64,000 nucleotides of DNA, taken from NCBI GenBank assembly GCA_016744675.1, contig JADGDX010000003.1, positions 1 through 64,000 of the forward strand, given 5' to 3'. How positions within the stretch are numbered: the first letter of the stretch is position 1; each line of letters opens with the position of its first letter. Below are positions 1,833-63,156 of this stretch, one piece after another. The notes beneath the pieces are model-generated. The model saw only the letters and a program-made list of their open reading frames with translations, had not been told where the DNA came from and searched no databases. A program made the position numbers and the translations under genes. Origin of the DNA: Desulfuromusa sp. (lineage in GTDB: Bacteria; Desulfobacterota; Desulfuromonadia; Desulfuromonadales; Geopsychrobacteraceae).

Positions 1833-1872
1833 AATCGGGAGATACATATGCTATTCTCCGCACTTGTGTCGT

Positions 1873-1908
1873 GATATTGAAGGAAATAGATCCCTATTTG
1901 GTAATATC
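1873..1908 (+). promoter_or_regulatory. imperfect hairpin in the leader of parA
   Basis: Nested inverted repeats occur between rsmG and parA: the outer arms are GATATT (1873-1878) and AATATC (1903-1908), the inner arms AAATAG (1884-1889) and CTATTT (1894-1899), with loop ATCC. The structure ends just before the AAAGGAG ribosome binding site of parA, so it could influence parA translation or mark a processing site. There is no T-tract, so it is not a classical terminator. Confidence 0.4.
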
Positions 1909-1927
1909 GCTTAAAGGAGCTACTTAA

Positions 1928-2698
1928 ATGGCAAAGATTATCGCCATTGCAAACCAGAAAGGTGGTGTCGGTAAAACAACGACAGCCGTCAATCTGGCTG
2001 CATCATTAGCGGCGGCAGAAAAAAAAACCCTGTTAATAGATATGGACCCTCAGGCAAATGCTTGTAGTGGCCTCGGTGTTGATAAAACTGAAGTGATATC
2101 AACTGTTTACAATGTTCTTCTTGGTGAAGAGGGTGCGCGGGATGTGATTCAGAAGACTGAATTGGCCTGTTTGGATGTCATTCCCTCCAATACCAACCTG
2201 ATTGGTGCTGAAATCGAACTAATCAATAAAAGCGAACGCGAGAAACAGCTTAAGTTCGCAATCGTTGAGTTGGTCCAAGAGTATGATTATGTCATCATCG
2301 ACTGTCCCCCGTCGCTCAGTCTACTTACGGTCAACGCTTTATCAGCCGCCGATTCTGTCCTTGTGCCACTGCAGTGCGAATTTTATGCAATGGAGGGGCT
2401 CGGTCAGTTAATGCAAACAATTCGCTTGGTTCAACAGGATCTAAACCCAGAACTTGTTCTTAGCGGCATTTTGCTGACAATGTTTGATGGACGAAATAAT
2501 TTATGCCATCAGGTCAGTGATGAAATCAGAGCTCATTTTGGAGACAAGGTTTTTCGGTCGGTCGTTCCGCGCAACGTCAGGTTGTCGGAGGCTCCAAGTT
2601 ACGGTCAACCTGTCTTGATGTATGATATTGCTTCCCGAGGTGCTCAGGCCTATATGGATCTGGCCCAGGAAATTTTAACTGGAGAGAGGCATGGCTAA
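1928..2698 (+). CDS. parA: chromosome partitioning ATPase ParA (Soj)
   Basis: Deviant Walker-type ATPase that forms the nucleoid-bound gradient segregating ParB-parS complexes. The sequence shows the deviant Walker [15 protein letters not shown] at about residues 11-24, switch I DMDPQANA near 38-45, and the [13 protein letters not shown] Walker B region near residue 121. At 256 residues it is a short chromosomal Soj without an N-terminal HTH extension. An AAAGGAG Shine-Dalgarno precedes the ATG. It overlaps parB by 8 bases. Confidence 0.97.
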
Positions 2699-3551
2699 AG
2701 TAAAACGACCAGCATTGGGAAAAGGAATTGGTGCATTATTAAATTCAGCTGCTCAAGAAGGGGGAAAAAAATATTTCTCTTGCCCTATTGAGGAATTGAA
2801 ACCACATAAGCAGCAGCCACGTAAAACATTTAATGATGACAAGATGGATGAACTGGTTGCTTCGATTAAAGAAAAGGGGGTTATCCAGCCCCTCGTCGTT
2901 CGTCGGCAAGGTGATTATTATCAGATTATTGCTGGTGAAAGACGTTGGCGCGCAGCGCAGCGTGCAGGGTTGGATCGTTTACCGGTTGTCATACAGGATG
3001 TATCTGAAGATTGGGCGTTGGAAATAGCCTTAATTGAAAATATCCAGAGAGAAGATTTGAACCCCCTTGAAGAAGCCGAGGCGTATCGCTATTTGATGGA
3101 TAGTTTTGATCTGCTTCAGGAAGAAGTTGCTAAGCGGGTTGGTAAAGACCGTTCGACGGTAGCAAATGCGTTAAGGTTGCTACGGTTACCAGCACAGGTT
3201 AAGGAGGACGTTGCGGAAGGTCGGCTGAGTATGGGGCATGCTCGTACCTTACTCGCCTTAGATCATGATGAAGATATAATCGAGGCGAGTTTAGAGATTA
3301 TCAGAAAAAAACTCTCTGTACGTGAAACAGAAAAACTGATCAAAAAAATCAAAAGCGTTTTCGGTGCAAAAAATAAACAGACGAAAACTAAGCCACCCGT
3401 AGATCCTAATATGATAGAGCTTGAAAACAATCTGAGGCAGCAGTTTGGCACTCAGGTTAAGCTAACGGCTAAAGACAAGGGTGGGAAGATTGAAATAAGC
3501 TATCATGACCAAGATGAGCTAACGCGAATTTTGGATTTACTGGGTATCTAG
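2691..3551 (+). CDS. parB: chromosome partitioning protein ParB
   Basis: CTP-dependent DNA clamp that loads at parS and partners ParA. Domain order: N-terminal ParA-contact peptide ending at KGIGALL, the CTPase/ParB domain with the conserved [13 protein letters not shown] motif near residues 82-94, the HTH that reads parS ([16 protein letters not shown]), and a C-terminal dimerisation domain. The length of 286 residues is typical. No parS-like TGTTNCACGTGNAACA palindrome was seen near the gene. Translation is coupled to parA through an 8-base overlap. Confidence 0.96.
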
Positions 3552-3585
3552 CAAAAGAGTTTTTAAATGGAAAGTGGTGACATAA

Positions 3586-4014
3586 ATGTTTGGTGGAAAA
3601 AAACAGGAGCAAAATCAAATGAAAAAACCCATCGCAATTGACAAAGCAGATATAAAAGCTTTTCTTGGCCCCGGAAGTCGCTTTGAAGGGAAACTGAGTT
3701 TCGATGAGATGGTGCGTCTCGATGGAACTTTCTCTGGAGAAATTGAATCGAGTGATACTCTTATCGTTGGAGAAACTGCTGAAATTGAGGGAAACATCAA
3801 GGTTGGAGCAATAATACTTAGCGGAAAATTTAACGGTGATATTGCGGCAACGACGATGGTTGAATTGCGAGCTCCGGCTCAAGTTGAGGGAACAATTACG
3901 ACTCCATCTATAAAGATTGATGAAAAAGTTATCTTCAATGGAACGATCAAAATGACGGACCCTGGCAAGCGGACTGAGAATGGACCGTCTGGCGAAGGAA
4001 AAAAGAAAACATAG
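3586..4014 (+). CDS. bactofilin family cytoskeletal protein
   Basis: Polymer-forming beta-helical protein (bactofilin, DUF583) used as a scaffold for cell shape, pole or envelope processes. Residues 25-120 show the repetitive short beta-strand pattern of the family (F-G-S-F-G-K-L, L-D-G-T-F-S-G-E-I, AEIEGNIKV, GKFNGDI, AQVEGTI), flanked by a charged N-terminal tail and a polar C-terminal tail. It follows parB by 34 bases; linkage of bactofilins to ParAB is known in other proteobacteria, for example the myxobacterial bactofilins. Confidence 0.92.
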   Translation: MFGGKKQEQNQMKKPIAIDKADIKAFLGPGSRFEGKLSFDEMVRLDGTFSGEIESSDTLIVGETAEIEGNIKVGAIILSGKFNGDIAATTMVELRAPAQVEGTITTPSIKIDEKVIFNGTIKMTDPGKRTENGPSGEGKKKT

Positions 4015-4145
4015 CAAAATAGTTGTTTTGTCCAAACTTACTTGTTGACACGAAACAGATGTTGACATGGCTCTCCGAATTATGATAGCTATTCGGTTTC
4101 TTGACCAAAATCCCTTTTTTATTAAGTCGTTATAACCCGGTATTC

Positions 4146-4158
4146 GTATACAGTATAC
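4146..4158. promoter_or_regulatory. 13-bp palindrome GTATACAGTATAC upstream of the atp operon
   Basis: A perfect odd-centred palindrome lies 33 bases before the atpX start codon. The same 13 bases recur in the promoter of the GntR/FCD regulator at 21361, where they sit between the -35 and -10 boxes. A possible -10 (TATAAC, 4131-4136) would place transcription start just ahead of or within this site. Operator function is inferred from the recurrence only. Confidence 0.45.
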
Positions 4159-4191
4159 CGTAAACACTGTCCTTCATAAGAGGTAAGCTAG

Positions 4192-4620
4192 GTGATAAGC
4201 GTTGACTGGACCTTGGGTCTACAGTTTCTTAACTTCATTATACTTCTGATAGTTTTGAATAAACTTCTTTATCGGCCACTTAAAAAAGTGATCGATGAAA
4301 GAAACGAAACCATAACAGGTTCACATGCCAAGGCGAAGAGTCTGCAAGCTGATATTGATAAAAAGATGGAGATCTATCAGCAGCAACTGAATGAAGCTAA
4401 AGTTCAGGCGAATGAAGAGCGGAATAAGTTGAAAAAAGCTGCTAACGAAAAAGAAGCAGCTATCCTCTCGGAAGCCCACGGAAAAGCATCAGTTCGTTTG
4501 CAGGCTATTAAGAGTCAGGTCAAAAAAGAGGCAGATGATGCCAGTAAGACTTTAAAAAGTGAAGCAAAGTCGTTGGCCGGTGAGATTACGACCAAGATTC
4601 TTGGCCGCGAATTAGCGTAA
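4192..4620 (+). CDS. atpX: ATP synthase F0 subunit b' (second b-type subunit)
   Basis: Peripheral-stalk subunit with 142 residues: one N-terminal membrane helix (about residues 8-26, LGLQFLNFIILLIVLNKLLY) followed by a long charged coiled coil. It pairs with the b subunit encoded next, as in organisms with heterodimeric b/b' stalks, including Geobacter. The start is GTG with AAGAGG about seven bases upstream. It is the first gene of atpX-F-H-A-G-D-C. Confidence 0.93.
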   Translation: MISVDWTLGLQFLNFIILLIVLNKLLYRPLKKVIDERNETITGSHAKAKSLQADIDKKMEIYQQQLNEAKVQANEERNKLKKAANEKEAAILSEAHGKASVRLQAIKSQVKKEADDASKTLKSEAKSLAGEITTKILGRELA

Positions 4621-10447: not shown

Positions 10448-12757
10448 ATGGAAAACAGTATAAAAACGACGAAATACACCTGCCTCACAATTGCCCTAAG
10501 CTATTTTGCATTTAGTGGACTATGGGCGTTTTACTCTAATAAATTGTTCTCTGTGTTGTTAAATCAGCCAGAATTAATGGAATTATCAACGGGCCCTGGG
10601 CACTGGTTCTTTATCGCCTTATCGACAGGGATGCTCTATTGGTTATTGCATTACTGGCAGGTTGCTATATCTGAATCTCAAATGTCTTTACAAAAAGTTA
10701 ATCGTTCCTTGCGAAGCTTTAGTGAGTGTACTAAAGCGATAACTCGCATTGACGATGAATATGAATTGATGGAAGGCATTTGTCGAATTTGTGTTGAAGT
10801 CGGTGGTCATCGGATGGCGTGGGTCGCCTTTGGTGAAGACAACCCTGACAAAGATATCCATCCAGTTGCCCATTGGGGTGCAGAAGGTTGCTTTTTAGAA
10901 ACCCTCAACGCAAGTTGGGCAGATACGGAACGTGGATGGGGCCCTGCAGGGACAAGTATTAGAACAGGTAAAATCACAGTTTTTCATAATATATTGACGA
11001 ATCCACTGTATCGGCCTTGGCTTGATGAAGTTGAAAAGTGCGGCTACACCTCATGCATTGCTCTCCCTTTAATAGAGGATGGGAAGGTCTTTGGTAGTTT
11101 GGTCATCTTTGACGAAAGGTCTCATGCTTTCGACGTTGAAGAAGCGCAATTACTTGAGGAACTGGCAGGTGATCTGTCTTATGGAATTAAAACATTACGT
11201 TTAAAAGCAGAGAGCAAAAGAGAAGTTAATGAGCGTTTAATGCTTGCAACGGTCATGGATCAGACCTCTGATGGGGTCATCACTTTTGATGCTGATGGGG
11301 TGATTCAATATATCAATCCAAGCTTTGTGGGTCTTTGTGGGGTACCAGCGAAAGAAAGTATTGGCGTCAGTATTCATGATTTTGAGTGTGCGAAGCGGAA
11401 CCCACTATTTTATCAAGCCGTTCTGAGTGTTTTTTCAAGTAACGAAGTTCTCAGTGGCCATTTTGTTAATAAAAAAAGAAATGGCAGCGAATACGATATT
11501 GATGCATACATTTCACCTGTATTTGGCGATTCAGGACAAGTTGTTCGTTATGTAGCGACGATTCGTGATGTTAGCAAGTCAATTCAGTTACAAGAACAGT
11601 TACGTAGAGCTCAAAAAATGGAGGCTTTAGCGACCCTGTCTGGAGGAATTGCACACGACTTTAATAATATTCTGGCTATCATCATTACGAATATGGAAAT
11701 GAGTCTTGAAGATATCCCCTCAGAGAGTCAGCTCTATCATTCTATGGAATTGGTTCTTAAGGCGGGCCTAAGAGGGAAGAGTCTAGTTAAGCAGTTTTTG
11801 ACAATTAGTCGGCAGAATGAACAACCCGAAACAATTGTCCATATCGAAGAGATAATAGAAGAATGTTACTCCTTATTGCGTTCTACGTTACCTTCAACAA
11901 TAGAATTGCGTAAGCAGATTGATACCGAGTCGGGTAGAATAGCTGCGGATCCAACGCAGATCAATCAGGTTGTTATGAACCTATGCACAAATGCTGGCGA
12001 TGCCATGCGTGATAAAGGTGGGATTTTAGATATTCATCTGAGCGAAGTTGTTTTGTCAGATGAGGATATTGTCCGTTACCCAGGGTTGAAATCTGGTGAA
12101 TTTATCAAATTAATTGTCGCGGACACCGGACAAGGAATGACACGTGAAGTTCTCGACCGAATATTTGATCCATTCTATACGACAAAAAATCAGGCAAAGG
12201 GAACTGGTCTAGGGCTTTCAATTGTTCATGGAATTATAAAAAGTCACCGGGGCTATATTTCTGTTAACAGTATTTTGGATGTCGGGACAACATTTGTTAT
12301 TCTGTTCCCAAAGGTTGACGGAAAAGATGCGATCAATGAAGAGGTCCCGGTACAGAAGAAAATCGAAGGGAAAGGACGTATTCTCTTTGTCGATGATGAA
12401 GTTGACTACGTTTTGGGGATGAAAATGGCTCTTGAAAGGCTAGGATACATTGTCACAGCTGAAACAGATTGTCGTAAAACGATCGACCTGTTCCGACGTC
12501 ACCCTGATGACTTTGATCTTCTGATAACAGATCAGACAATGCCACATATGACGGGAGTGGTGTTAGCGCAGGAAGTATTGAAGGTTAACCCAGATTTTCC
12601 GATCATTCTTTGCTCAGGGTCTTCACCCGAGACCGACACAGCTGTCAATCCCGAGAAAGCAAAAGCTCTGGGGATTAGCCAGGTTTTGATGAAACCCGTT
12701 GAAAGAGGTGAGCTTCATCAAGTGATTCAGCAGTTATTAAATGCTGGTACTGATTAG
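10448..12757 (+). CDS. membrane hybrid histidine kinase (GAF-PAS-HisKA-HATPase-REC)
   Basis: Sensor kinase of about 769 residues. Two N-terminal membrane helices (CLTIALSYFAFSGLWAFY and WFFIALSTGMLYWLLHYW) flank a short periplasmic loop, followed by a GAF domain, a PAS domain starting VMDQTSDGVITFDADG, a dimerisation helix with phospho-acceptor histidine in GGIAHDFNNIL, an ATPase domain (N box CTNAGDAM, G boxes DTGQGM and GTGLGLS) and a C-terminal receiver (LLITDQTMP). I chose the ATG at 10448 because GGAG lies nine bases upstream; an in-frame GTG at 10421 has no such site. It precedes a sigma-54 response regulator by 17 bases, so they are the likely cognate pair controlling the cytochrome genes downstream. 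Confidence 0.93.
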   Translation: MENSIKTTKYTCLTIALSYFAFSGLWAFYSNKLFSVLLNQPELMELSTGPGHWFFIALSTGMLYWLLHYWQVAISESQMSLQKVNRSLRSFSECTKAITRIDDEYELMEGICRICVEVGGHRMAWVAFGEDNPDKDIHPVAHWGAEGCFLETLNASWADTERGWGPAGTSIRTGKITVFHNILTNPLYRPWLDEVEKCGYTSCIALPLIEDGKVFGSLVIFDERSHAFDVEEAQLLEELAGDLSYGIKTLRLKAESKREVNERLMLATVMDQTSDGVITFDADGVIQYINPSFVGLCGVPAKESIGVSIHDFECAKRNPLFYQAVLSVFSSNEVLSGHFVNKKRNGSEYDIDAYISPVFGDSGQVVRYVATIRDVSKSIQLQEQLRRAQKMEALATLSGGIAHDFNNILAIIITNMEMSLEDIPSESQLYHSMELVLKAGLRGKSLVKQFLTISRQNEQPETIVHIEEIIEECYSLLRSTLPSTIELRKQIDTESGRIAADPTQINQVVMNLCTNAGDAMRDKGGILDIHLSEVVLSDEDIVRYPGLKSGEFIKLIVADTGQGMTREVLDRIFDPFYTTKNQAKGTGLGLSIVHGIIKSHRGYISVNSILDVGTTFVILFPKVDGKDAINEEVPVQKKIEGKGRILFVDDEVDYVLGMKMALERLGYIVTAETDCRKTIDLFRRHPDDFDLLITDQTMPHMTGVVLAQEVLKVNPDFPIILCSGSSPETDTAVNPEKAKALGISQVLMKPVERGELHQVIQQLLNAGTD

Positions 12758-12774
12758 TTCTCTGTGAGGGACAA

Positions 12775-14187
12775 ATGGCAAAAATTCTAATTATCGATGA
12801 TGAAGAGATGATGTGTGAAACGTTATCAACACTTGTCGAGCGTAAAAAGCATAAAGCAACGAGTGCGGTGACCTTAGGCAAAGGGATTGATCTTGCCGAT
12901 AGGGGGGATTTTGATATTGTTTTTCTTGATGTCAAAATGCCTGATGGAAATGGACTTGATGCTCTTCCTAAAATACAAGCAAGCAAGTCAAACCCGGAAG
13001 TCATTATCATGACCGGCTTTGGTGACCCTAACGGTGCAGAGTTGGCGATTAAATGCGGTGCTTGGGATTATGTCGAAAAGGGTTTTTCAATTAAAGAAAT
13101 TACCCTTTCTCTGGAAAGAGCACTTCAGTATAGGAAAGAAAAGCAAGAAGCTCAGGATAAGCGTAAGCCAGTACAACTCAAACGTGATCATATTATTGGG
13201 AGTAGTCCAGCATTAAATAGTTGCTTAGATTTGGTGGCTCAAGCTGCTGAAAGTGATGCAAATATTTTTATTACAGGAGAAACCGGGACGGGTAAAGAAT
13301 TATTTGCCCGAGCTGTTTATGAAAATAGTTTGCGCAATGAACATGACTTTGTTGTCGTTGATTGCACTTCTTTGCCTGAAACATTAGTTGAAAGCCTTTT
13401 ATTTGGTCATGAAAAAGGGTCGTTTACGGGGGCAGATAAGGCGCAAAATGGGTTAGTTCGTCAGGCTCACAAGGGGACTCTTTTCCTCGACGAAATTGGT
13501 GAATTACCGATGTCGCTGCAAAAATCCTTTTTGCGTGTTTTGCAGGAGCATAAGTTTCGCCCGGTTGGTGGGAATAAAGAAGTTGAAAGTAATTTTCGTC
13601 TCATTGCGGCAACGAACCGTGATTTGGATGCGATGGTAGAGAGTGGAGAATTTCGCAGTGACTTGTTGTTTCGTCTGCGAACTTTCATTATTGAGCTTCC
13701 ACCGTTGCGTGAAAGACGAGAGGATATTAAAGAGTTAGCCAGATACCATATTGATAAGTTCTGTACACAATATAAATTGGCAACCAAAGGGTTTTCACCC
13801 GAATTTATGGAAACGCTTGTCAGTTATCCCTGGCCTGGAAATGTACGAGAGTTTGTTAATACTCTCGAGCGCAGTTTGACGACGGCACGTTTTGATCAGA
13901 CCCTCTACCCAAAACACCTCCCCCATCACATCCGTGTCCATGTGCGCCGGGCCGAAATGGAAAAGGGTTCAAGTTCATCTCCTGTCGATCCTAAACAAGC
14001 TGTCCGTAACCTTCCAAAGCTCCAGGAATATCGTGATAGTGTTTATGCGCAGGCAGAGAAAGATTATCTGCAAGAATTAATGGAGATGACAGCAGATAAT
14101 ATTTCAGAAGCATGTCGTATCTCCGGATTATCCCAATCGAGGTTGTACGCTCTCCTGAAAAAAAGTGGTATTTCTCGAAGCGAATAG
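12775..14187 (+). CDS. sigma-54-dependent response regulator (NtrC type)
   Basis: 470 residues: receiver domain with phospho-Asp near residue 52 (VFLDVKMPDG), AAA+ sigma-54 activation domain with Walker A GETGTGKE, the sigma-54-contacting loop as GSFTGA, Walker B LFLDEIGEL and LPPLRERREDI, and a C-terminal Fis-type HTH (NISEACRISGLSQSRLYALLKKSG). The usual K-P pair at the end of the receiver is K-G (YVEKGF). In Geobacter the cbcBA genes need the sigma-54 regulator BccR; this neighbour of a CbcBA-like pair is a plausible functional equivalent. The three candidate sigma-54 promoters downstream are its likely targets. Confidence 0.95.
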   Translation: MAKILIIDDEEMMCETLSTLVERKKHKATSAVTLGKGIDLADRGDFDIVFLDVKMPDGNGLDALPKIQASKSNPEVIIMTGFGDPNGAELAIKCGAWDYVEKGFSIKEITLSLERALQYRKEKQEAQDKRKPVQLKRDHIIGSSPALNSCLDLVAQAAESDANIFITGETGTGKELFARAVYENSLRNEHDFVVVDCTSLPETLVESLLFGHEKGSFTGADKAQNGLVRQAHKGTLFLDEIGELPMSLQKSFLRVLQEHKFRPVGGNKEVESNFRLIAATNRDLDAMVESGEFRSDLLFRLRTFIIELPPLRERREDIKELARYHIDKFCTQYKLATKGFSPEFMETLVSYPWPGNVREFVNTLERSLTTARFDQTLYPKHLPHHIRVHVRRAEMEKGSSSSPVDPKQAVRNLPKLQEYRDSVYAQAEKDYLQELMEMTADNISEACRISGLSQSRLYALLKKSGISRSE

Positions 14188-52186: not shown

Positions 52187-53338
52187 CTAGTCAGCCATGA
52201 CAAACTTACCATTTTTAACCTGAACCATGACCATCGAGCTGACATCGAGCCCGTTGTGGTCTTCACTGGTGATATTGTAGGTTCCAGAAATACCAATATA
52301 ATTCTTGGTGTTCTCGATCTCTGTCCGCAGCGCTTCAGCGTCTGTGCCTACTTTTTTAATAGCATTTGCAACAATCATGATGGCGTCCCAAGCATATCCT
52401 GAATGGGTATTGATAGGAAACTGCTTGTCGTAACCTTTTTCTTTGTAAAGATTGATGAACTCTTGAATAACGGGTTTTTGTGGGTCGTTATCGGGTAGCT
52501 CACTGGCAACCATCAGCTTGGTAGCTGGCATACGATCCCCTTCACTGGCAGCGCCTGCCAACTCAATATACTTGGGGTCTGGGAGTCCGTGGCATTGGAA
52601 CAGAGGTAGGTCAATACCAAGTTGTGCTTTGTTTTTTGCAACGATGGAGCCTGCTGGGCCAATTGTCCAGGTAATGATTGCTTGAGGATGGCTATTTTTG
52701 ACTTTTGTCAGTTGTGCAGTCATATCGGTATCACGGGTTCCGAATGACTCTTGGGCGACCAGTTCGATTCCATACTCCGAAGCAAGCTTTGTCATCCAGC
52801 GAGCACCATCTTTGCCAAAGCCATCAGCGGCTGAGAGGAGAGCCACTTTTGTCAGCCCTTTTTCTTTGAGGTAGTTAAAGAGTTGCTTTACAGCGATACT
52901 AGAGCGCTGGGGGGACTTAAAGACCCACTTGTAGGGGCCAAATTTCCCACCCATAATGACAGGGTCTCCACCAACAGTCATAAAGATAGGGACTTGTCCT
53001 TTGTCGACAACTTTTTTGACGTTCATTCCGGTATCGGTCAGGGTGGGTCCAATAATCGCAACGACCTTGTCCTTGTAGATAAATTTTTTGGCAATAGACG
53101 CAGTTTTGGATGGATCTGCCTCGGTATCGGCAATTTCCAATTCGAGCATTTTGCCGTTAATGCCACCTTCTGAGTTGATTTTCTCAACCACCATTTCGGC
53201 CACAAGTTTGGTTGGAGTGCCGATAAAGGCGGCACGACCAGACAGGTCAAAGAATGCACCGAGTTTAATTGTATCACTGGCGATGGCTGATGTTGCTAGG
53301 ATGAGCAAGCAGGCCACAAGTCCTAGAATTTTTTTCAT
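52187..53338 (-). CDS. LIV-type ABC transporter substrate-binding protein
   Basis: 383 residues with a signal peptide (MKKILGLVACLLILATSAIA) and the type I periplasmic binding fold: IKLGAFFDLSGRAAFIGTPTKLVAEMVVEKINSEGGINGKMLEL, and VVAIIGPTLTDTGMNVKKVVDKGQVPIF. It is the binding component expected for LivHMGF encoded 2.5-10 kb upstream. Because that transporter is interleaved with aryl-pyruvate enzymes, an aromatic acid or aromatic amino acid ligand is inferred. ATG 53338 has GGAGA ahead, better than the extended frame from 53365. Confidence 0.92.
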   Translation of the reverse strand: MKKILGLVACLLILATSAIASDTIKLGAFFDLSGRAAFIGTPTKLVAEMVVEKINSEGGINGKMLELEIADTEADPSKTASIAKKFIYKDKVVAIIGPTLTDTGMNVKKVVDKGQVPIFMTVGGDPVIMGGKFGPYKWVFKSPQRSSIAVKQLFNYLKEKGLTKVALLSAADGFGKDGARWMTKLASEYGIELVAQESFGTRDTDMTAQLTKVKNSHPQAIITWTIGPAGSIVAKNKAQLGIDLPLFQCHGLPDPKYIELAGAASEGDRMPATKLMVASELPDNDPQKPVIQEFINLYKEKGYDKQFPINTHSGYAWDAIMIVANAIKKVGTDAEALRTEIENTKNYIGISGTYNITSEDHNGLDVSSMVMVQVKNGKFVMAD

Positions 53339-53368
53339 CAAAGTATCTCCTTCATTGTTTTTCATGAT

Positions 53369-54280
53369 TTAAAAGTGGTGGACAAAGCGTAGTGTGTAAC
53401 GTTCTCCTTCAGAACGATAAGCACTATCTGATTCAAAATAAGAGTTGAAAAAGAGGTGGTTGTCAGGGTTTATATGCCAGATGAAACCAGGGCCTATAGC
53501 AATGACCTTCTCCTTATCTGTTATTCTGGCTCCATTTGCTTCAGAACTGCTGATCTGTTTGAAGAAGTATCCGTTGAGGCCAATCCTAAGCTGCTTCGGG
53601 ATCACTTCATAGGCAAAGGCAAAGTTTCCATGGACGGCTTGGCCAGCTTGAGTGTCATTGGCTCCACTCCCAACAAAAGGGTCATCATTTTTCTCATTCC
53701 ACAGGTAGTGCACGCGCCAGCTGGTGGTTAGTTTTGGTGTGATAAACACTGTTGCAGTCCAATAAGGGTTGAAAGACCAGAAATTACTTCCCGGATTCAA
53801 TGCTTTGTTATCAGCATATTTTCCTGTTGGAATGATCGTTTGTAATTCAATCCGATGCATAAAAAGCGGTCCGTTTTTCCCCATGATGGGGTCCCACTGA
53901 ATGTAAGGGCCAACTAACAGATCTCCCAGACCCGTTCCATTGTTAGGAAGTGTATCGCTCTCCAATTTGACGAGAGGGACAATAATATCAAGACCCCACT
54001 TACCACCAAGAAAGAGCGGAGTGTCTGATTGATAGATAAGCTGGTTAAGGCTGATAAACGCATCAATATCTGCTTCTGGCGCAGCAAAGTCCTTAAAGTC
54101 ATCAGAGCTGTAATATTGGAGGTATTCGGTGAAATAGAATCCTGGCCCCGCAGGAGGTCCTCCATCAAGAAAACTGGTAAAACCTAAATTGATCGAGGGC
54201 TGATTATATGAAGCTGCTGGTGTTCCCCATATCAAGATACTAATAACTGCCATGCTGAGAATGAAACGAATTTTATGCAT
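53369..54280 (-). CDS. outer-membrane beta-barrel protein, phenol_MetA_deg family-like
   Basis: 303 residues, signal peptide (RFILSMAVISILIWGTPAAS), then beta-barrel strands with the MetA-pathway pattern GGPPAGPGFYFTEYLQYYSSDD, GTGLGDLLVGPYIQWDP, TGKYADNKALNPGSNFWSFNPYWTAT and a C-terminal Phe (YTLRFVHHF). Members often accompany aromatic-compound catabolic genes and are proposed as channels for aromatic substrates. It precedes the binding protein by 30 bases, one transcription unit. Its 5' end faces trpR, with the trp-like operator in between. Confidence 0.8.
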   Translation of the reverse strand: MHKIRFILSMAVISILIWGTPAASYNQPSINLGFTSFLDGGPPAGPGFYFTEYLQYYSSDDFKDFAAPEADIDAFISLNQLIYQSDTPLFLGGKWGLDIIVPLVKLESDTLPNNGTGLGDLLVGPYIQWDPIMGKNGPLFMHRIELQTIIPTGKYADNKALNPGSNFWSFNPYWTATVFITPKLTTSWRVHYLWNEKNDDPFVGSGANDTQAGQAVHGNFAFAYEVIPKQLRIGLNGYFFKQISSSEANGARITDKEKVIAIGPGFIWHINPDNHLFFNSYFESDSAYRSEGERYTLRFVHHF

Positions 54281-54716: not shown

Positions 54717-56804
54717 CTAGACAATTTCATCTTCAATTCGATTATCAAAAACACGCTGACTCTTTTTTTCTGATCGTGGCAAACTGGCGTATTCAATAAG
54801 ATCCAAATCAACCGTGACCATTAATTGCTTTTTGATCTGATGACTGACTTCATGATTGAGTTCAGGGTTCCGTTTGGCATCAACCTTTTCGGCACGTTCA
54901 ACCTTCAAACGCATGTGATCACGGCCAGCATTATCTCGGGTCAGGTGGATCTGGTATTCGGAGCCTATTCCGGGAACGGTCGATAAAATGGTATCGATGC
55001 TGCTGGGATAGATATTGACCCCACGGAACTTGATGGTGTCATCGCTACGCCCTTTGATTCGGGAATGGCGTGGCAGGACACTGCCGCAAGCACATTGACC
55101 GGGGATTCTTCTGGTGATATCGCGGGTTCGATAGCGGATCAGTGGGGAGCCTTCCTTACAGAGAGTTGTGACGACCATTTCACCCCATTCACCCTCAGGG
55201 ACAGGCTGTAAAGTTTCTGGATCAAGAATTTCGAGCAGGTAGTAATCACCCCAGTAATGGATGCAATCGTGCTCGCTACACTCTATTCCTGTTCCTGGCC
55301 CATAGAGTTCGGTCAAGCCCGTAATATCAAATAATTCTGCACCCCCAAAGAGTTCGGAAATCTTTTTTCTCATGGAACGGCTGGAGCGCTCGGATCCATA
55401 AATAATTTTTTTAATCGTAATTTGGTCTGCAACTCCACGTTTGTGGATCTCTTCTGCCATGAGCAACGCCATTGACGCTGTTGAACAAAAAACTGTTGAT
55501 TGAAAATCGAGTAAAAACTGGATTTGCATATCGATATTTCCTGGGCCAACAGGAACAGCCATCGCGCCGACTTTTTCACATCCCAGCTGAAACCCCATTC
55601 CTGCAGTCCAGACCCCATACCCAACCGCAATCTGAACCCTGTCAAGGGAGGTGACCCCCGCCATTTGGTAGGAGCGAGCAAAAAAATCAGTCCAGTCATC
55701 AAGGTCTTTCTGGGTGTAGCAAAGAACTTTGCGTTTCCCTGTTGTCCCTGAAGAGGCATGGATACGAACGATCTGCTCAAAAGGGACCGATCGAAGAGGA
55801 AACGGATATCCTTGGCGAAGGTCATCTGCCGTGGTAAAGGGGAGTTTCTGCAAATCTTCAAGGGATTGAATTGACTCAGGAGTAATATTGAGTTGATCAA
55901 ACTTTTCCCGGTATTCGGCAGATCCTTCATAAGTGTGACGAACCGTCCATTGTAGACCGGCTAATTGATGTGCTTTTAACGCTGCTTCATTCTCAAAATG
56001 AGGGATAAAGTTTTGCTGTTGCATGTTCGGTTTCTCCAGACGAATATTAGTCAGGCCAGCCGCTCCAAGACGGCTAGCTGCAGGGTCAGAATCGCTTGCG
56101 GCTCCAAGAAAGGCTGAGCGCAAAATGGGGTCATTTAAAAGGGCGCTACTTTGCCCTTGTTCGATCACTTCCCCATTGGCGAGCAGGTAAGCTTTATCGG
56201 ATGCAGATAGAGCGCGAGCTGCATTTTGTTCAACAAGTAAAATAGTCGTTCCCGTGCGGGACAATTGATGGATGATCGAAAAAATTTCATCAGTTATCAG
56301 AGGGGCCAATCCAAGACTTGGCTCATCCAGCAGCAATAAGGTTGGTTTTGCCATAAGTGCACGCCCCATTGCTAACATTTGTTGTTCGCCACCAGAAAGT
56401 GTCCCTGATAGTTGTTGCTGACGTTCTTTGAGTTTTGGGAAACGTCTGAAGACGTCTTCGATACGATGTGTTGATTCTGTTTTTGAGAGTTTTAGAGGAA
56501 TTGCTCCTAGTTGAAGATTTTCCAGAACAGACAGGTGGCCAAAGACTTCACGCCCTTCGGGAGAAAGTGCCAACCCCAAACGAACCATCTGTGCTGGATT
56601 TGTATGGGTTACATTCTTTCCGTTAAGACTGATATGGCCTCCTGAGGGCTTAATCAGACCCATGAGGCATTTTAAAAGGGTGCTTTTTCCTGCCCCGTTA
56701 GCCCCAACGAGGGCCACAGTTTCACCTTGGCCAATTTCAAGATCAACACCGAAAAGGGCTTGGGCGGCACCGTAGTGGGCTGTCAGGTTATTAATTTTGA
56801 GCAT
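54717..56804 (-). CDS. fusion of LivF-type ABC ATPase and phenylacetate-CoA-ligase-like enzyme
   Basis: 695 residues. Residues 1-235 are a full LivF ATPase: Walker A GANGAGKS (34-41), signature LSGGE (136-140), Walker B LLLLDEPSLG (156-165), LLVEQN (189-194). After a 25-residue linker, residues 261-695 are a complete AMP-forming arylacetate-CoA ligase (PaaK family): HASSGTTGKRK (349-359), ITGLTELYGPG (494-504), YRTRDIT, CACG zinc-like pair and the lid GRSDDTIKFRGVNIYPS. Met-261 (56024) is preceded by GGAG nine bases upstream, so the ligase could also be made alone. No frameshift is needed. The gene is the last of the liv-ior unit. Confidence 0.9.
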   Translation of the reverse strand: MLKINNLTAHYGAAQALFGVDLEIGQGETVALVGANGAGKSTLLKCLMGLIKPSGGHISLNGKNVTHTNPAQMVRLGLALSPEGREVFGHLSVLENLQLGAIPLKLSKTESTHRIEDVFRRFPKLKERQQQLSGTLSGGEQQMLAMGRALMAKPTLLLLDEPSLGLAPLITDEIFSIIHQLSRTGTTILLVEQNAARALSASDKAYLLANGEVIEQGQSSALLNDPILRSAFLGAASDSDPAASRLGAAGLTNIRLEKPNMQQQNFIPHFENEAALKAHQLAGLQWTVRHTYEGSAEYREKFDQLNITPESIQSLEDLQKLPFTTADDLRQGYPFPLRSVPFEQIVRIHASSGTTGKRKVLCYTQKDLDDWTDFFARSYQMAGVTSLDRVQIAVGYGVWTAGMGFQLGCEKVGAMAVPVGPGNIDMQIQFLLDFQSTVFCSTASMALLMAEEIHKRGVADQITIKKIIYGSERSSRSMRKKISELFGGAELFDITGLTELYGPGTGIECSEHDCIHYWGDYYLLEILDPETLQPVPEGEWGEMVVTTLCKEGSPLIRYRTRDITRRIPGQCACGSVLPRHSRIKGRSDDTIKFRGVNIYPSSIDTILSTVPGIGSEYQIHLTRDNAGRDHMRLKVERAEKVDAKRNPELNHEVSHQIKKQLMVTVDLDLIEYASLPRSEKKSQRVFDNRIEDEIV

Positions 56805-56937: not shown

Positions 56938-57702
56938 TCAAGCTGTTGCATCCATTCGGCCCAAATAGGCTTCAAGGACGAGAGGATTCTGTCGAACTTC
57001 CCCCGGGGTTCCGGTAGCGATACATTTTCCACTATCCAGAACAACGACTTGATCAGCTATATCCATAACTAATGCCATGTCGTGTTCAACTAAGAGCATG
57101 GTATGTCCGGAACTTCGAAGCAAACGCAGTTGTTCTCCGACTGTCGCTGTTTCTTCTGCATTGAGCCCGGCTACGGGTTCATCGAGCAAAATCAATTGTG
57201 GTCGAGAAACAGTCGCACGTGCTAGTTCAACACGCTTTTTGTCACCATAAGCAAGAATTCCAGCTGGCCAGTTAGCTTTATCCGTCAGCCCAAAGCGATC
57301 CAAGGCTTCCATGGCACGTAATTTTAACTGCCGCTCTCGGTGGCGTAAATGGGGGAGGCGCAGCATGGCCATTATCATTGAGTCCCCCCCTTCGCAGGTG
57401 AGACCAGTAAGAATATTTTCAAGAACGGTTAATCGGGAGAAAACTTTTAAATTTTGAAATGTACGAGATATTCCCTGACGACTGATCTGATGAGCGGGAA
57501 GGGCCGCAATCTCTCGTTCTTGAAACCTAATATTTCCGGAACTAGGCTGGAGGACGCCGGTAATGCAGTTGATAAGGGTACTTTTTCCCGCACCGTTTGG
57601 CCCGATCAGTGCGGTCAGTTGTCCTTTTGGGACACCAAAGGTCACTTCACTTAAAGCGGGAAGGCCCCCAAAATTTTTACTGACATGCTTAAGTTGAAGC
57701 AT
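56938..57702 (-). CDS. livG: LIV-type ABC transporter ATP-binding protein LivG
   Basis: 254 residues with Walker A GPNGAGKS, the LivG-type helical insertion (RLPHLRHRERQLKLRAMEAL), signature AYGDKKRVELARA (instead of LSGGQ, normal for LivG) and Walker B LILLDEPVAGLN. Its start overlaps the end of livM by 14 bases. Confidence 0.95.
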   Translation of the reverse strand: MLQLKHVSKNFGGLPALSEVTFGVPKGQLTALIGPNGAGKSTLINCITGVLQPSSGNIRFQEREIAALPAHQISRQGISRTFQNLKVFSRLTVLENILTGLTCEGGDSMIMAMLRLPHLRHRERQLKLRAMEALDRFGLTDKANWPAGILAYGDKKRVELARATVSRPQLILLDEPVAGLNAEETATVGEQLRLLRSSGHTMLLVEHDMALVMDIADQVVVLDSGKCIATGTPGEVRQNPLVLEAYLGRMDATA

Positions 57703-58687
57703 TTTTACGCCTCCGCAAAGCCAGTTTAATTTTTATAGATTCAACCAAACCTGTCACAAGCCCTTGGGGGAGAAACATCAAAACGAGGACAAGGATGCCG
57801 CCATGAATAAAATCTTTATAGGTTTCGAAAAGATCGAGCCACTCAGGGAGGAGGGTTATCAGTGCTGCTCCAAAAAGAGATCCCCAGATTGAGCCCATTC
57901 CTCCAATAACCACCATAATGACCATGTCGGTTGAGGTGAAAATGGTAAAAGAATCGGGGCTAACAAAAGAATAGCAGTGGGCAAAGAGGCTCCCTGCAAG
58001 TGATGCTAGCACCGCTGAAAGGACAAATATTTTAATTTTTGCATTACGTGTATTAACGCCCAGTGCAGCAGCGGCGATTTCGTCACCAGCCAGAGCTGAC
58101 AAACCACGACCGACGCCACTGCGAACCAGATTCAGGCAGAGGAGCAAGCTGAGGAGTGTTACTCCCCAGAGGAGATAATGGAGTCGAACCTCATCATCAA
58201 ATTCAAAGTTCCCAAAAGAGAGGTACGGTATCCCGGAGAACCCACTGGGGCCGCCTGTCACATCATCCCATTGGAGAAGTATGGTGTGAACGACAAAGTT
58301 TAAGCCTAGGGTTGCCATTGCTAGATAATGGCCAGAAAGGCGAAGAATTGGAATTCCAACTAACAGAGCGACCAGAGCAACGATAGCGGCAACAAGGATC
58401 ATAGCGGGCCAAGGCGGGATTTCATAAGTGACGGTTGCAATTGCAGAACCGTACGCCCCAAGCCCAAAAAAGGCGGCGTGACCGAGTGAGATTTGCCCTG
58501 CGTAGCCTATAAAAAGGTTAAGTCCGAGGACGACGATGGCATTGATGGCAATCAGGTTGGTGAGCCCGAGGGTGTAGGGATTATCTTCAAACAGAGGAAG
58601 CAGTAATAGCGCCAGAGACAAGCCAGTCACGGTGAGTCCGGTGCGGTGTAGGTAGATAAAATACAGAAATTTTTGTTTGCTGGTCAT
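57689..58687 (-). CDS. livM: LIV-type ABC transporter permease LivM
   Basis: 332 residues with about eight membrane helices and the LivM patterns GLNLFIGYAGQISLGHAAFFGLGAYGSA and GGMGSIWGSLFGAALITLLPEWL. Membrane partner of LivH. The start codon is preceded by the CACCACAAAGA element on the opposite strand. Confidence 0.95.
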   Translation of the reverse strand: MTSKQKFLYFIYLHRTGLTVTGLSLALLLLPLFEDNPYTLGLTNLIAINAIVVLGLNLFIGYAGQISLGHAAFFGLGAYGSAIATVTYEIPPWPAMILVAAIVALVALLVGIPILRLSGHYLAMATLGLNFVVHTILLQWDDVTGGPSGFSGIPYLSFGNFEFDDEVRLHYLLWGVTLLSLLLCLNLVRSGVGRGLSALAGDEIAAAALGVNTRNAKIKIFVLSAVLASLAGSLFAHCYSFVSPDSFTIFTSTDMVIMVVIGGMGSIWGSLFGAALITLLPEWLDLFETYKDFIHGGILVLVLMFLPQGLVTGLVESIKIKLALRRRKNAST

Positions 58688-58762: not shown

Positions 58763-59272
58763 TTAGTCCTCTGTCTTGTTCAGTCCTTTGTGAAATGCTG
58801 CGAGGTTTTGTTCGATAAACTTTTTGGGTGCTAATTGTTTAATCGCTGTTTCACATTCCTCAGCGGTATAAATTAAAGCCTCTTCTCTGATGGCTGCTCC
58901 GAGTAAAACCAGGTTTAATAGCACGGCATTGCCAAGATTTCTGGCAATATTTGCCGCATCGATGCTGATATGGTCACTTTTATTAGGGCTGTTAATAATC
59001 CATTGACCTTGATCTTTTAATAAAGATTGATGGACAGGGAGGTTTTCTTCCCACAGCAGCAGACCTAAATCGGCTTGACCGGTTCGAATTAAGGGGCTGG
59101 AAAAATCTCCAATTTTAATTGTCGAAAGGACCGTTCCACCTCGTTGCGCCATACCATGGGTCTCTGAGGTGAGTACGGCAGTCCTTCGATTAACAGCCAC
59201 TTGAGCAATCACTCGAGTCAGAAACAGCACTCCTTGGCCGCCAATTCCACTGACGATAATTTGCTGTTTCAT
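58763..59272 (-). CDS. iorB: indolepyruvate:ferredoxin oxidoreductase subunit beta
   Basis: 169 residues, the gamma-type domain of 2-oxoacid:ferredoxin oxidoreductases: QIIVSGIGGQGVLFLTRVIAQVA near the start and SETHGMAQRGGTVLSTIKIG. With IorA it interconverts aryl-pyruvate + CoA + oxidised ferredoxin and aryl-acetyl-CoA + CO2 + reduced ferredoxin. ATG 59272 overlaps the iorA stop by four bases. Confidence 0.94.
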   Translation of the reverse strand: MKQQIIVSGIGGQGVLFLTRVIAQVAVNRRTAVLTSETHGMAQRGGTVLSTIKIGDFSSPLIRTGQADLGLLLWEENLPVHQSLLKDQGQWIINSPNKSDHISIDAANIARNLGNAVLLNLVLLGAAIREEALIYTAEECETAIKQLAPKKFIEQNLAAFHKGLNKTED

Positions 59273-61095
59273 GATTTTTTCTCCTTGATAATCGCATTGA
59301 CAGGGCAAACGGGAACGCAGGTCCCACATCCAATACAACGATCTTGATTAATGATGGCCATGTTGTTTTCTTCATCCATAGAAAAGGCCTGACATTCAAA
59401 CTTGTCAGTACAAATGCGACATCCAATACAGCTATCGTTGATCGTGACAAAAAAGGAATCTTGAGCTTTACGTGTTGCTGGGTCCATGATGCAACCATGT
59501 TGAGCAATAAGGACGGCAACGCCTCCTTCCGGGCTACGTATATGGGAATCAGCTTGCTTCAGTAAGGTTTCAAAACGGACATTGTCGTATGGGTCACATG
59601 TTTCGATGAAGCTCACTCCGCTCGCTTTAACCAGAGGTTCGATTGACACTGCCTTGGTCGCTTTCCCTCCAGCTGCGATTCCCATGTGGGGGACGGGCTG
59701 ACCGCCTGTCATAGCGGTTGTAGCGTTATCGAGAATGACAACGATGATACGGGCTTGTTGAATCACGGCATTGATCAATGCTGGAATTCCGGAATGGAAA
59801 AAAGTTGAATCGCCGATGGTGACAACAATTGTTGGGAAGTCTTCTTCATTTTGTTGATAGGCTTGGTAAAACCCGGCCCCCTGACTGATACACGCTCCCA
59901 TACAATGAACAGTGTGGACGGCTCCAAGATTCAACCCGAGCGTGTAGCAGCCGATATCAGAAGGATAAATTCCTTTTGGGAAACATTTCTTAATACTGTA
60001 AAAAGCACTTCGATGAGAACAGCCTGGGCACAGTGATGGCCGTTGGCCGCGGCGTTCTTCTGGTTTTTCTTCTGGAGGAGTTAAATTCAGAAAGTCTGCC
60101 AGCGCTTGGTGAATAACGTCTGGCGTTAACTCGCCTTCTCGAGGGACGGCACCATTTTGTTTGCCGACAATTCCTGAATGGGTCAATTGAAGCTCAATGA
60201 CTGGATAGGTCTCTTCCAAAATCAAAATGTGGTCATACTTTTTGTCTAAGTCACTGGAGAAATTTGGGTTTAAAGGGTAAGGCATTAAAACCTGATAGAG
60301 ATCAATTTTGTCCTTAAGGCCCAGTTCTTCGAGCACATCGACCAAATTACTGTAGGCAATCCCTGCGGCAACCAAAGCTGTTCGTGGCTTGTTTCCATCG
60401 CCAGGGGTCAAGCGTGGCTTCCAGTTGGGCTCAAGCGCAATTTTCTCAAGGTTTGCATTAAGCTTCTTGTGAAGTGCTGGAAGAAAGGCGGGTGTCGCTG
60501 ACCAACGTGGTGTGTCAGGGACGAAATTGGCATCCCTCTTAAGTGTTATTGTGTCAGAAATAGCGACATTTTGTCGGGAGTGACAAATTCTGGTCGTTGG
60601 CCTCAGGACTATATTCGTTTCGTATTTTTCAGATAATTCAAATGCAGGTTCGACGAACTCTTTTGCTTCTGCAGGGCTGGATGGATCAAGAACGGGGACA
60701 CGGGCTTGTAGGCAAAATAAACGCGTATCTTGTTCATTTTGAGAGCTATGTGGGCCAGGGTCATCGGCAACAATGGTCAGCATTCCCCCTTTGACCCCGA
60801 GATATGCTGTTCTCATAAATGGGTCAGCTGCGACATTTAAACCGACCTGTTTCATTACTGCTACGGAACGTTTTCCTGTATAGCTGGCAGCAAGTGCGAC
60901 TTCAAACGCAATTTTTTCGTTGACGGACCATTCGAGGTGAAGAGGCTCGATTGCCTGATCACGGCGGTCAATGACAGCCTGCAGGATTTCAGTCGAAGGA
61001 GTTCCTGGATACGCGACAGCCACCTGGCACCCAGCTTCAATAAGCCCTTGGCCAATCGCTTCATTTCCCATCATCAATTCAATATTATTATTCAT
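59269..61095 (-). CDS. iorA: indolepyruvate:ferredoxin oxidoreductase subunit alpha
   Basis: 608 residues. N-terminal pyruvate-binding domain (AYPGTPSTEILQAV, SVAVMKQVGLNVAADP), TPP domain (PSLCPGCSHRSAFYSIKK, IGDSTFFHSGIPALINAV) and two C-terminal 4Fe-4S clusters (CIGCRICTDKFEC and CIGCGTCVPVCP). In archaea IorAB oxidises aryl-pyruvates in amino acid fermentation, and in some methanogens it runs backwards to make aromatic amino acids from imported aryl acids. The gene lies between livH and iorB in a transport operon. Confidence 0.96.
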   Translation of the reverse strand: MNNNIELMMGNEAIGQGLIEAGCQVAVAYPGTPSTEILQAVIDRRDQAIEPLHLEWSVNEKIAFEVALAASYTGKRSVAVMKQVGLNVAADPFMRTAYLGVKGGMLTIVADDPGPHSSQNEQDTRLFCLQARVPVLDPSSPAEAKEFVEPAFELSEKYETNIVLRPTTRICHSRQNVAISDTITLKRDANFVPDTPRWSATPAFLPALHKKLNANLEKIALEPNWKPRLTPGDGNKPRTALVAAGIAYSNLVDVLEELGLKDKIDLYQVLMPYPLNPNFSSDLDKKYDHILILEETYPVIELQLTHSGIVGKQNGAVPREGELTPDVIHQALADFLNLTPPEEKPEERRGQRPSLCPGCSHRSAFYSIKKCFPKGIYPSDIGCYTLGLNLGAVHTVHCMGACISQGAGFYQAYQQNEEDFPTIVVTIGDSTFFHSGIPALINAVIQQARIIVVILDNATTAMTGGQPVPHMGIAAGGKATKAVSIEPLVKASGVSFIETCDPYDNVRFETLLKQADSHIRSPEGGVAVLIAQHGCIMDPATRKAQDSFFVTINDSCIGCRICTDKFECQAFSMDEENNMAIINQDRCIGCGTCVPVCPVNAIIKEKKS

Positions 61096-61157: not shown

Positions 61158-62015
61158 TTATTTTCCCAGTAATCCCTTTGGGCGGACAAATAAGACCAAC
61201 AGTAATACAACAAACGCGACAACATCTTTGTAGGCACTTGAAAGGTATCCAGCCGATAGAGATTCGAGTAAACCTAGGCCAACTCCACCCAAAATTGCAC
61301 CCGGAAATGAACCAAATCCACCTAGTATTGCAGCAGCAAACCCTTTGAGGCCGAGAAGAACACCGACATCATAATTCAACGTTGTGATTGGGGTGACAAG
61401 AACACCGGCTAAACCACCTAAAGCACCGGCGATCGCATAACTGGTGAGGCGAATTCTTCCCGCCGGGATACCAACGACAGCAGCAGCAGTAGGATTTGAA
61501 GCAACGGCGCGCATTGAAAGTCCCAGTGGGGTTCGATAAAAGAACCACGTCAACAGAGTTATCGCAACGATGGTTAAAAATATAATCCAGAGTGCTTGGG
61601 GAAGAATACTGGCCCCAAAAATTTTTATAGGGACATCGGGAGTCAAAGGGGGCAAAGCCATGCGATTCTTGCCCCAGATGAGCTTGATAAGCCCACGCAG
61701 GATGATTGATAGGCCTACAGTTAAGAAAATCAATACGAGATGATTGTCAGATCGTGCTGGTCTCAAGCCGAAGCGCTCTACCACCATGGCAACAATTGCG
61801 ACTCCAGAAATGGCTAACAATAGCCCTGGCAACATGGGAAGTCCCATGGCAAAGAGAGCTGAAAACATGATCATCCCACCCAGAGAGACAAAATCAACTT
61901 GAACAAAGTTGACAATTCCCATGGTGTTATTGACGACACAGAACCCAAGAGCAATGAGGGCGTAAATTGCTCCACTGGTTAGGCCTGAAAAGAGATATTG
62001 AAGAAAGTCGGTCAA
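61158..62015 (-). CDS. livH: LIV-type ABC transporter permease LivH
   Basis: 285 residues, about eight membrane helices, with GLTSGAIYALIALGFCVVNNTMGIVNFVQ and LKGFAAAILGGFGSFPGAILGGVGLGLLESL, typical of LivH. It is the first gene of the minus-strand unit livH-iorA-iorB-livM-livG-livF/paaK, facing a divergent AraC-type regulator. Confidence 0.95.
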   Translation of the reverse strand: MTDFLQYLFSGLTSGAIYALIALGFCVVNNTMGIVNFVQVDFVSLGGMIMFSALFAMGLPMLPGLLLAISGVAIVAMVVERFGLRPARSDNHLVLIFLTVGLSIILRGLIKLIWGKNRMALPPLTPDVPIKIFGASILPQALWIIFLTIVAITLLTWFFYRTPLGLSMRAVASNPTAAAVVGIPAGRIRLTSYAIAGALGGLAGVLVTPITTLNYDVGVLLGLKGFAAAILGGFGSFPGAILGGVGLGLLESLSAGYLSSAYKDVVAFVVLLLVLFVRPKGLLGK

Positions 62016-62184: not shown

Positions 62185-63156
62185 ATGTTGAACATTACTG
62201 TCGTGGCTTACGATAATTGCCTGCAATCGGGAATTGCAGGAATGCTTGATTTGTTCACGTTGGCGAATTGGGAGCAGAAGCGCTTATCACCGGAGTCAAA
62301 ATCGCTGTTCTGTCACACGAATGTGGTGACTCTTGATGGCGAACCTGTGACTAGTTTTAATCGTCAGCAGGTCGTTGCAAATTGCAGTATCAGAGAATGC
62401 AAAGATATTGATCTGCTGATTGTTCCTGGAGTGATGGGTCGGCCAGATCGCCTTTTGGAAAATACCGAATTAGTGGATTGGATTGGCGATCAGCATAGTA
62501 ATGGTACGATTGTCGCTAGTGCTTGCTCCGGTGCTTTCTTGCTTGCTGAAGCCGGTATTTTAAAGGGTCGGTCAGCAACAACGCATTGGCAACTAGCAGA
62601 TCGTTTCAGACAACGCTATCCAAAAATAGACATGCAGATTGATCGCCTGATTATTGATGGTGTTGACTATCTTTGTGCCGCAGGAACCGGTGCTCATCAT
62701 GATCTTGCCCTGCATTTAATTGAAAAATATGGGTCAAAATCGCTGGCGAAAGTGTGCGCACGCATGATGTTAATTGACGGAAATCGCCGCGATCAGGCTC
62801 CTTTTGTCAGGTTTAGGGGGAGTCGAGAGCATATCGACGAACCGGTTTTAAAAGTTCAGCAATGGTTGGATCAATATTATCGTGAGAAAGTTTCGGTGCG
62901 GGTCATGGCTAAGCGCTCGGGATTAAATGAGCGAACCTTTCTCCGCCGCTTTAAAAAAGCGACCGGCGAAGCACCGTTGGAATATCTGCAAAAAATGCGG
63001 ATTGAAAAAGCAAAACAGTTACTAACTGGAACCGACCAATCTCTGGAGGTTATTACCAACTCAGTTGGTTATGTAGATCTCAGTTCTTTCCGCCGCTTGT
63101 TCCACCAGGTTGTCGGGATTTCACCAAGCGTTTATCGACAGCGATTTGGCAGTTGA
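62185..63156 (+). CDS. AraC-family regulator with DJ-1/PfpI domain (GlxA type)
   Basis: 323 residues. N-terminal glutamine-amidotransferase-like domain (LLIVPGVMGRP and SACSGAFLLAEAGILKGRSATTHW, with the nucleophile-elbow Cys) and a C-terminal double-HTH AraC domain (VRVMAKRSGLNERTFLRRFKKATGEAPLEYLQKMRIEKAKQLL, in parts, then DLSSFRRLFHQVVGISPSVYRQRF). The divergent position makes it the likely direct regulator of livH-ior-liv-paaK. GAAAGGGG precedes the ATG. Its 3' end overlaps the convergent DMT gene by 25 bases. Confidence 0.92.
   Translation: MLNITVVAYDNCLQSGIAGMLDLFTLANWEQKRLSPESKSLFCHTNVVTLDGEPVTSFNRQQVVANCSIRECKDIDLLIVPGVMGRPDRLLENTELVDWIGDQHSNGTIVASACSGAFLLAEAGILKGRSATTHWQLADRFRQRYPKIDMQIDRLIIDGVDYLCAAGTGAHHDLALHLIEKYGSKSLAKVCARMMLIDGNRRDQAPFVRFRGSREHIDEPVLKVQQWLDQYYREKVSVRVMAKRSGLNERTFLRRFKKATGEAPLEYLQKMRIEKAKQLLTGTDQSLEVITNSVGYVDLSSFRRLFHQVVGISPSVYRQRFGS

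Follow-up and report, generated by a model that had tools for sequence, protein, structure and literature searches.

An in-frame fusion of a Liv-type transporter ATPase with a PaaK-family CoA ligase, conserved across a bacterial order and probably encoding two proteins

When the ATPase of an importer and a CoA ligase share a single reading frame, is the join genuine, does the gene give rise to one protein or two, and what might the cell gain from it? These questions are raised by a gene in the window, the stretch of 64,000 nucleotides of Desulfuromusa sp. DNA analysed here. The initial annotation had read it as LivF fused in frame to a phenylacetate-CoA ligase, with both halves complete, a 25-residue linker and a Met preceded by its own GGAG at the junction. 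The anatomy and the coordinates given for it are correct, and the linker is free of stop codons:

54717-56804, minus strand: fusion gene, ATG at 56804, stop codon 54717-54719; 695 aa, uninterrupted.
56100-56804, minus strand: LivF-type ABC transporter ATPase half, residues 1-235; PF00005 E=2.9e-31, best named models LivF/UrtE, motifs intact.
56025-56099, minus strand: linker, residues 236-260 (25 residues); contains RLGAAGLTNIRLEK, residues 245-258, at 56031-56072.
56034-56037, minus strand: internal Shine-Dalgarno (SD) core GGAG within codons CTG-GAG-AAA; GAG in 52/52 genomes.
56022-56024, minus strand: internal ATG (Met261), from which a free ligase of 435 aa probably starts; a conserved start codon in the fusions and the start of the stand-alone ligase L166.
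54717-56024, minus strand: PaaK-family AMP-forming acyl/aryl-CoA ligase half, residues 261-695 and stop; PF00501, PF14535, alignment to solved structures.

What are the two halves? In a profile search residues 1-235 match the ABC_tran and LivF models, and the translation contains a Walker A motif (GANGAGKST, 34-42), a signature (LSGGE, 136-140) and a Walker B motif (LLLLDE, 156-161). Together with the livG, livM, livH and livK genes co-encoded in the window and in relatives, these intact motifs place the half among the ATPases of Liv/HAAT importers. Against the equivalog model of the E. coli-type LivF, NF008626, it scores 250.5 of the 441 bits required. On these matches it is a Liv-type ATPase, and membership of a leucine importer does not necessarily follow. 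Residues 274-689 of the second half match AMP-binding (PF00501, 42.8 bits) and AMP-binding_C_2 (PF14535, 96.3 bits), both above cut-off. With the ATP loop SSGTTGK at residues 351-357, these two domains assign the half to the PaaK-family AMP-forming CoA ligases, and it aligns over its length to the solved phenylacetate-CoA ligases 4r1l, 2y27 and 2y4o. The completeness of both halves and the retention of their nucleotide-binding motifs are therefore borne out by profile matches and translation alike. The proposed substrate fared less well. The ligase half reaches 401.6 bits against the PaaK equivalog TIGR02155, whose cut-off is 646.3, and it differs from the solved PaaKs in stretches where those are conserved, for example GYGVWTAGMGFQLGCEK and STASM. 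Because the TIGR02155 cut-off is missed, the label 'phenylacetate-CoA ligase' is, as judged from sequence, too specific, and specificity for phenylacetate is not established.

Could the fusion be an artefact, a stop codon deleted by assembly or sequencing error? A close homologue is found in 56 of the 136 genomes of the order to which the window belongs; these include four stand-alone ligases and some fragments, mostly at contig ends, and the rest are full-length fusions. A stop codon at the junction in close relatives had been named beforehand as the observation that would count against the fusion; it was sought in the approximately 50 order genomes with full-length fusions, which are 70-90% identical, and none was found. 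Since the same frame is open in about 50 independently assembled genomes, some of them single-contig, chance and assembly error are excluded. Nothing was found in favour of an error, and its probability is negligible. The search for proteins with the same domain order that had been proposed found the fusion across the order, in a second family of the same phylum and in a few isolated genomes; named relatives include Desulforhopalus sp. IMCC35007 (81%) and a metagenome-assembled genome labelled Desulfuromonadales (75%). By this comparison of genomes the fusion is stably inherited across dozens of species of sulfate-reducer-like bacteria. A fusion of this kind was not described in the open-access literature searched. 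A second LivF-ligase fusion had been suspected on another contig of the same genome (C122), but the ORF after LivF there is unrelated; by eye it looks universal-stress-like, and it is no ligase.

The fusion gene is the sixth gene of an operon, with livK farther downstream, and the order livH-iorA-iorB-livM-livG-[livF::paaK]-livK is conserved in fused genomes. The other members in the window, among them the iorA and iorB genes that played no part in the initial annotation, are:

61158-62015, minus strand: livH permease, first gene of the operon; PF02653 E=1.6e-39, 64-94% identical in relatives.
59269-61095, minus strand: iorA, indolepyruvate-type ferredoxin oxidoreductase alpha subunit; TIGR03336 E=2.5e-188.
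58763-59272, minus strand: iorB, 2-oxoacid:ferredoxin oxidoreductase beta/gamma subunit; PF01558, NF004916 E=5e-56, conserved position; start set at an internal Met of the listed ORF and approximate.
57689-58687, minus strand: livM permease; PF02653 E=2e-46, conserved position.
56938-57702, minus strand: livG, second ABC ATPase of the importer; profile matches, conserved position.
52187-53365, minus strand: livK periplasmic substrate-binding protein; PF13458 E=1.7e-54, located after the fusion gene in most relatives.

The match of IorA to TIGR03336 (IOR alpha) is a full-length near miss, at 627.1 of the required 650.9 bits. Two further genes of the window were considered as operon members and rejected, their positions not being conserved. 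One is an outer-membrane-channel or porin-like gene (PF13557, Phenol_MetA_deg; 53369-54280, minus strand), which separates the fusion from livK here and was not found adjoining the fusion in the relatives checked. The other is a divergent GlxA-like regulator of the AraC/GlxA type (DJ-1/PfpI and AraC domains by eye; 62185-63156, plus strand) immediately upstream of livH, which occupies that position in only one of 22 relatives. The operon is interrupted in some relatives: approximately 2 kb lie between livG and the fusion gene in L160 and L161, the gap in L160 holding an ORF that resembles A/G-specific adenine glycosylase (MutY) by eye, and in L154 a Fic-domain-like ORF (11179-12402, minus strand; by eye, HPFFDGNGRVAR) is inserted between iorB and livM. 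Elsewhere in the window's own genome, on contig C99, lies another iorAB-paaK cluster, of the canonical kind; its ligases share just 44% and 37% identity with the fused one.

How did two genes become one? In distant members of the phylum, livF and the ligase gene are separate, adjacent genes of the same operon. The unfused genes overlap at stop and start in two cases (ATGA in L178, TGATG in L182), with an SD-like sequence in the end of livF, and in L167 they are separated by TAA-GGAG. A stop/start overlap with an SD sequence in the end of the upstream gene is the classic layout of translational coupling. Because distant relatives have the two genes adjacent, and overlapping in two of them, the fusion probably arose from translationally coupled livF and paaK neighbours. 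The intervening stop would have been lost and the ribosome-binding site of the ligase kept inside what is now the linker.

Has the fusion ever been undone? In a tree of the ligases, a single, well-supported group comprises the fused ones together with seven that stand alone, and the tree favours one fusion followed by several losses of the ATPase half as the best explanation. Since a single fused clade was not rejected by the AU test (p=0.125), these losses rest on moderate tree support and on a relic in L166, one of the seven stand-alone ligases. L166 has lost the ATPase and retains a frame-shifted, 47-nt relic of the linker directly before the ligase ATG. The relic ends in the same CTGGAGAAG-CC (that is, CTGGAGAAGCCGCACATG directly at the ligase start), and its alignment score is 19, compared with a shuffle maximum of 13. 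A full-length LivF relic upstream was rejected: a permissive alignment of 300 nt is no better than shuffles, and only the last 47 nt are significant. In L166, to judge from the relic, the internal SD and ATG evidently became the start of a stand-alone ligase gene.

Is the internal start used while the fusion is intact? Within any one genome the SD sequence is not unusual when compared with synonymous shuffles (p 0.06 to 0.8). Once this outcome had proved non-significant, conservation across genomes was examined instead, the other invariant codons of the gene serving as the control; the case for the internal SD thus rests on that conservation. Codon 257 (Glu) is GAG in 52 of 52 order genomes, while GAG makes up on average 49% at the gene's 23 invariant Glu codons, with 75% as the top value besides codon 257; in the same genomes the flanking codons Leu256 and Lys258 rank first for YTG and AAA, respectively. 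On a tree of 46 fusions no synonymous change is inferred at Glu257, the slowest of 119 two-fold codons, against a mean of 11.9 for invariant Glu codons and a next lowest value of 8. Lys258 has three synonymous changes against a mean of 11.6, and the third base of Leu256 is tied for the lowest of 255. The junction is the top window of synonymous conservation in the gene. A further control, added after the switch of test, rejected Glu-Lys codon context as the cause of GAG, which precedes AAA elsewhere in only 10 of 34 cases (29%).

The start codon is conserved in a similar way. The ATG lies at normal SD spacing from GGAG, and of 64 fusions 60 have ATG as the Met261 codon. Among the four exceptions, three that are close relatives of one another have TTG, which is a valid start codon. 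In 38 of the 46 fusions the RNA around the internal start has slightly less structure than its synonymous shuffles. The SD and the start codon are thus conserved beyond the need of the protein, as expected of a conserved internal translation start, and this pattern indicates that the internal Met with its GGAG is under selection. In the second family the SD sequences are weaker or altered (GAA, GAC, GTG; GGTGA variants).

Might the conserved junction codons serve an internal promoter or an RNA element instead, no free ligase being made? Slow synonymous change is also seen at codons 251-252 (56049-56054; CTG ACT here, mostly CTG ACC), which lie 24 to 30 nt before the internal ATG, too far upstream to belong to an SD, and this favours such an element. 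They also hold a TGA in the +1 frame. However, the codons that change most slowly are precisely those of GGAG-AAA, which sit at normal spacing from a start codon that is itself conserved; where Met is lost, this start codon turns to TTG; local structure around it is reduced in the fusions; and the L166 relic uses the site as a start. We consider a promoter or RNA element improbable. Two proteins most likely come from the gene: one of 77 kDa, in which the ligase is tethered to the transporter, and one of 49 kDa, the ligase by itself. Comparative evidence, namely the conservation of the internal SD and ATG and the L166 relic, gives strong support to the suggestion that the cell also produces free ligase. 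Calculation gives 76.7 kDa for the complete chain and 49.2 kDa for a product begun at the internal Met, slightly above the 75 and 48 kDa foreseen. One distant fusion without the internal start (L163, genome G378) has a locus, at 1658-4426 and 11884-13965, in which the divergent fusion and two tandem stand-alone ligases lie 7-10 kb apart. These extra ligases fit a need for free ligase in this one case.

The linker is conserved as protein as well. RLGAAGLTNIRLEK has a mean majority fraction of 0.989 over 52 genomes and ranks 15th of 681 windows of 14 residues. At residues 245-250 synonymous sites vary freely, so that conservation of this part of RLGAAGLTNIRLEK reflects selection at the protein level. 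The peptide is absent from the unfused LivF C-termini examined. An AlphaFold2 model of the fusion has good domains and leaves the linker unplaced (pLDDT below 50, pTM 0.63); for this reason, RLGAAGLTNIRLEK could be a short motif that binds a partner absent from the model.

What could be gained by joining a ligase to an importer? Tethering of the ligase to the importer, as the initial annotation had it, is real as anatomy, following as it does from the structure of the gene, and vectorial acylation of the transported substrate by the fusion is plausible. Translation from the first ATG would give LivF::ligase, whose ATPase would join the LivFGHM importer and hold the ligase at the cytoplasmic face, and the internal GGAG-ATG would give free ligase from the same mRNA. 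The cargo of LivFGHM and LivK would be an organic acid or some compound related to amino acids; the ligase would trap it as acyl-CoA, and IorAB of the same operon would interconvert acyl-CoA and 2-oxo acid. Because the conserved operon and, in part, a covalent fusion link them, importer, ligase and IorAB most likely handle one acid, through import, CoA activation and acyl-CoA/2-oxo acid exchange. Flux is possible either way: acids could be salvaged into amino acids through reductive carboxylation, or they could be degraded. Prephenate dehydratase, the sole pathway marker checked, is present in the genome, and the cell would therefore not depend on salvaging aromatic acids. Since neither the ligase nor IorA reaches its equivalog cut-off, phenylacetate and indolepyruvate serve only as guides to the substrate.

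As a whole, a stable fusion giving two proteins per mRNA, with importer-tethered and free ligase serving acid import, activation and IorAB, is the best explanation, and we hold it with moderate confidence. What comparison shows is that the two genes are fused, that they belong to a conserved operon, that coupled but unfused genes exist in relatives, and that the internal initiation site is under selection. That free ligase is made and that the fusion docks at the importer is what we infer from these, along with substrate, flux direction and any channelling. A bolder version, which is tentative and rather unlikely, is a one-gene importer metabolon: the ATPase would be covalently the CoA ligase of its own cargo, docked through the linker peptide, free ligase would pair with the tethered form, and transport, trapping and IorAB would form one assembly.

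Alternatively, the fusion may only fix the ratio of operon partners, the ligase working in the cytosol with IorAB and drawing no benefit from the importer. The ligase survives without LivF in several lineages, and free ligase is probably made anyway. In two order relatives it sits with iorA-iorB alone, with no transporter nearby; transport is thus not its only context, its partnership with IorAB can persist alone and tethering is not essential to its chemistry. By contrast, the fusion is kept in most members of the order that have the gene, and the near-invariant linker peptide would be needless for a passive join. We regard a mere fixing of the ratio as doubtful, though worth keeping in mind. 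Could the ligase half instead be a regulatory domain of the importer, sensing acyl-CoA, AMP or substrate and gating ATP hydrolysis? The MetN and MalK importers have regulatory domains at the C terminus of the ATPase, the position of the ligase here, and the high conservation of the linker would also suit such a role. However, the ligase keeps its motifs and is close to stand-alone enzymes, whereas a pure sensor would be expected to drift, and a regulatory role appears very unlikely.

The preferred reading, an importer-tethered and a free ligase from one gene, can be set beside several known systems. Compared with LivF of the branched-chain amino acid (HAAT family) importers, the ATPase half has the same full motifs and the same LivG, LivM, LivH and LivK partners, and differs in the CoA ligase at its C terminus. 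The ligase half is the same two-domain AMP-forming enzyme as PaaK (4r1l, 2y27/2y4n, 2y4o), with a full-length alignment, but here it is fused to an ABC ATPase and scores below the equivalog cut-off. The iorAB-paaK clusters of anaerobes likewise co-encode a 2-oxoacid:ferredoxin oxidoreductase with a PaaK-type ligase; here that pair is merged with a Liv importer, and the ligase is joined to its ATPase. Vectorial acylation is the coupling of uptake to CoA activation, as by FadL/FadD of E. coli. Peroxisomal ABC transporters work with acyl-CoA synthetases (cf. PMC4144768). The comparison with the FadL/FadD and peroxisomal systems is one of working only, as those are separate proteins and the fusion is one chain. 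The case for vectorial acylation has been built mostly on separate proteins, whose contact with one another is uncertain, and the fusion offers a system in which the coupling of uptake and activation is testable by cutting one linker. As for the internal start, infB, cheA and cas8/cas11 each have a conserved in-frame internal start that gives a long and a short product. The arrangement is the same here, with a single frame, an internal SD and ATG, and a predicted C-terminal short form. The retained start is a clear case of how fused, coupled neighbours can keep yielding a separate enzyme, and it warns annotators that such fusion genes probably encode two proteins. Unlike the starts within infB, cheA and cas8/cas11, the one described here most likely began as the start of a gene that once stood apart.
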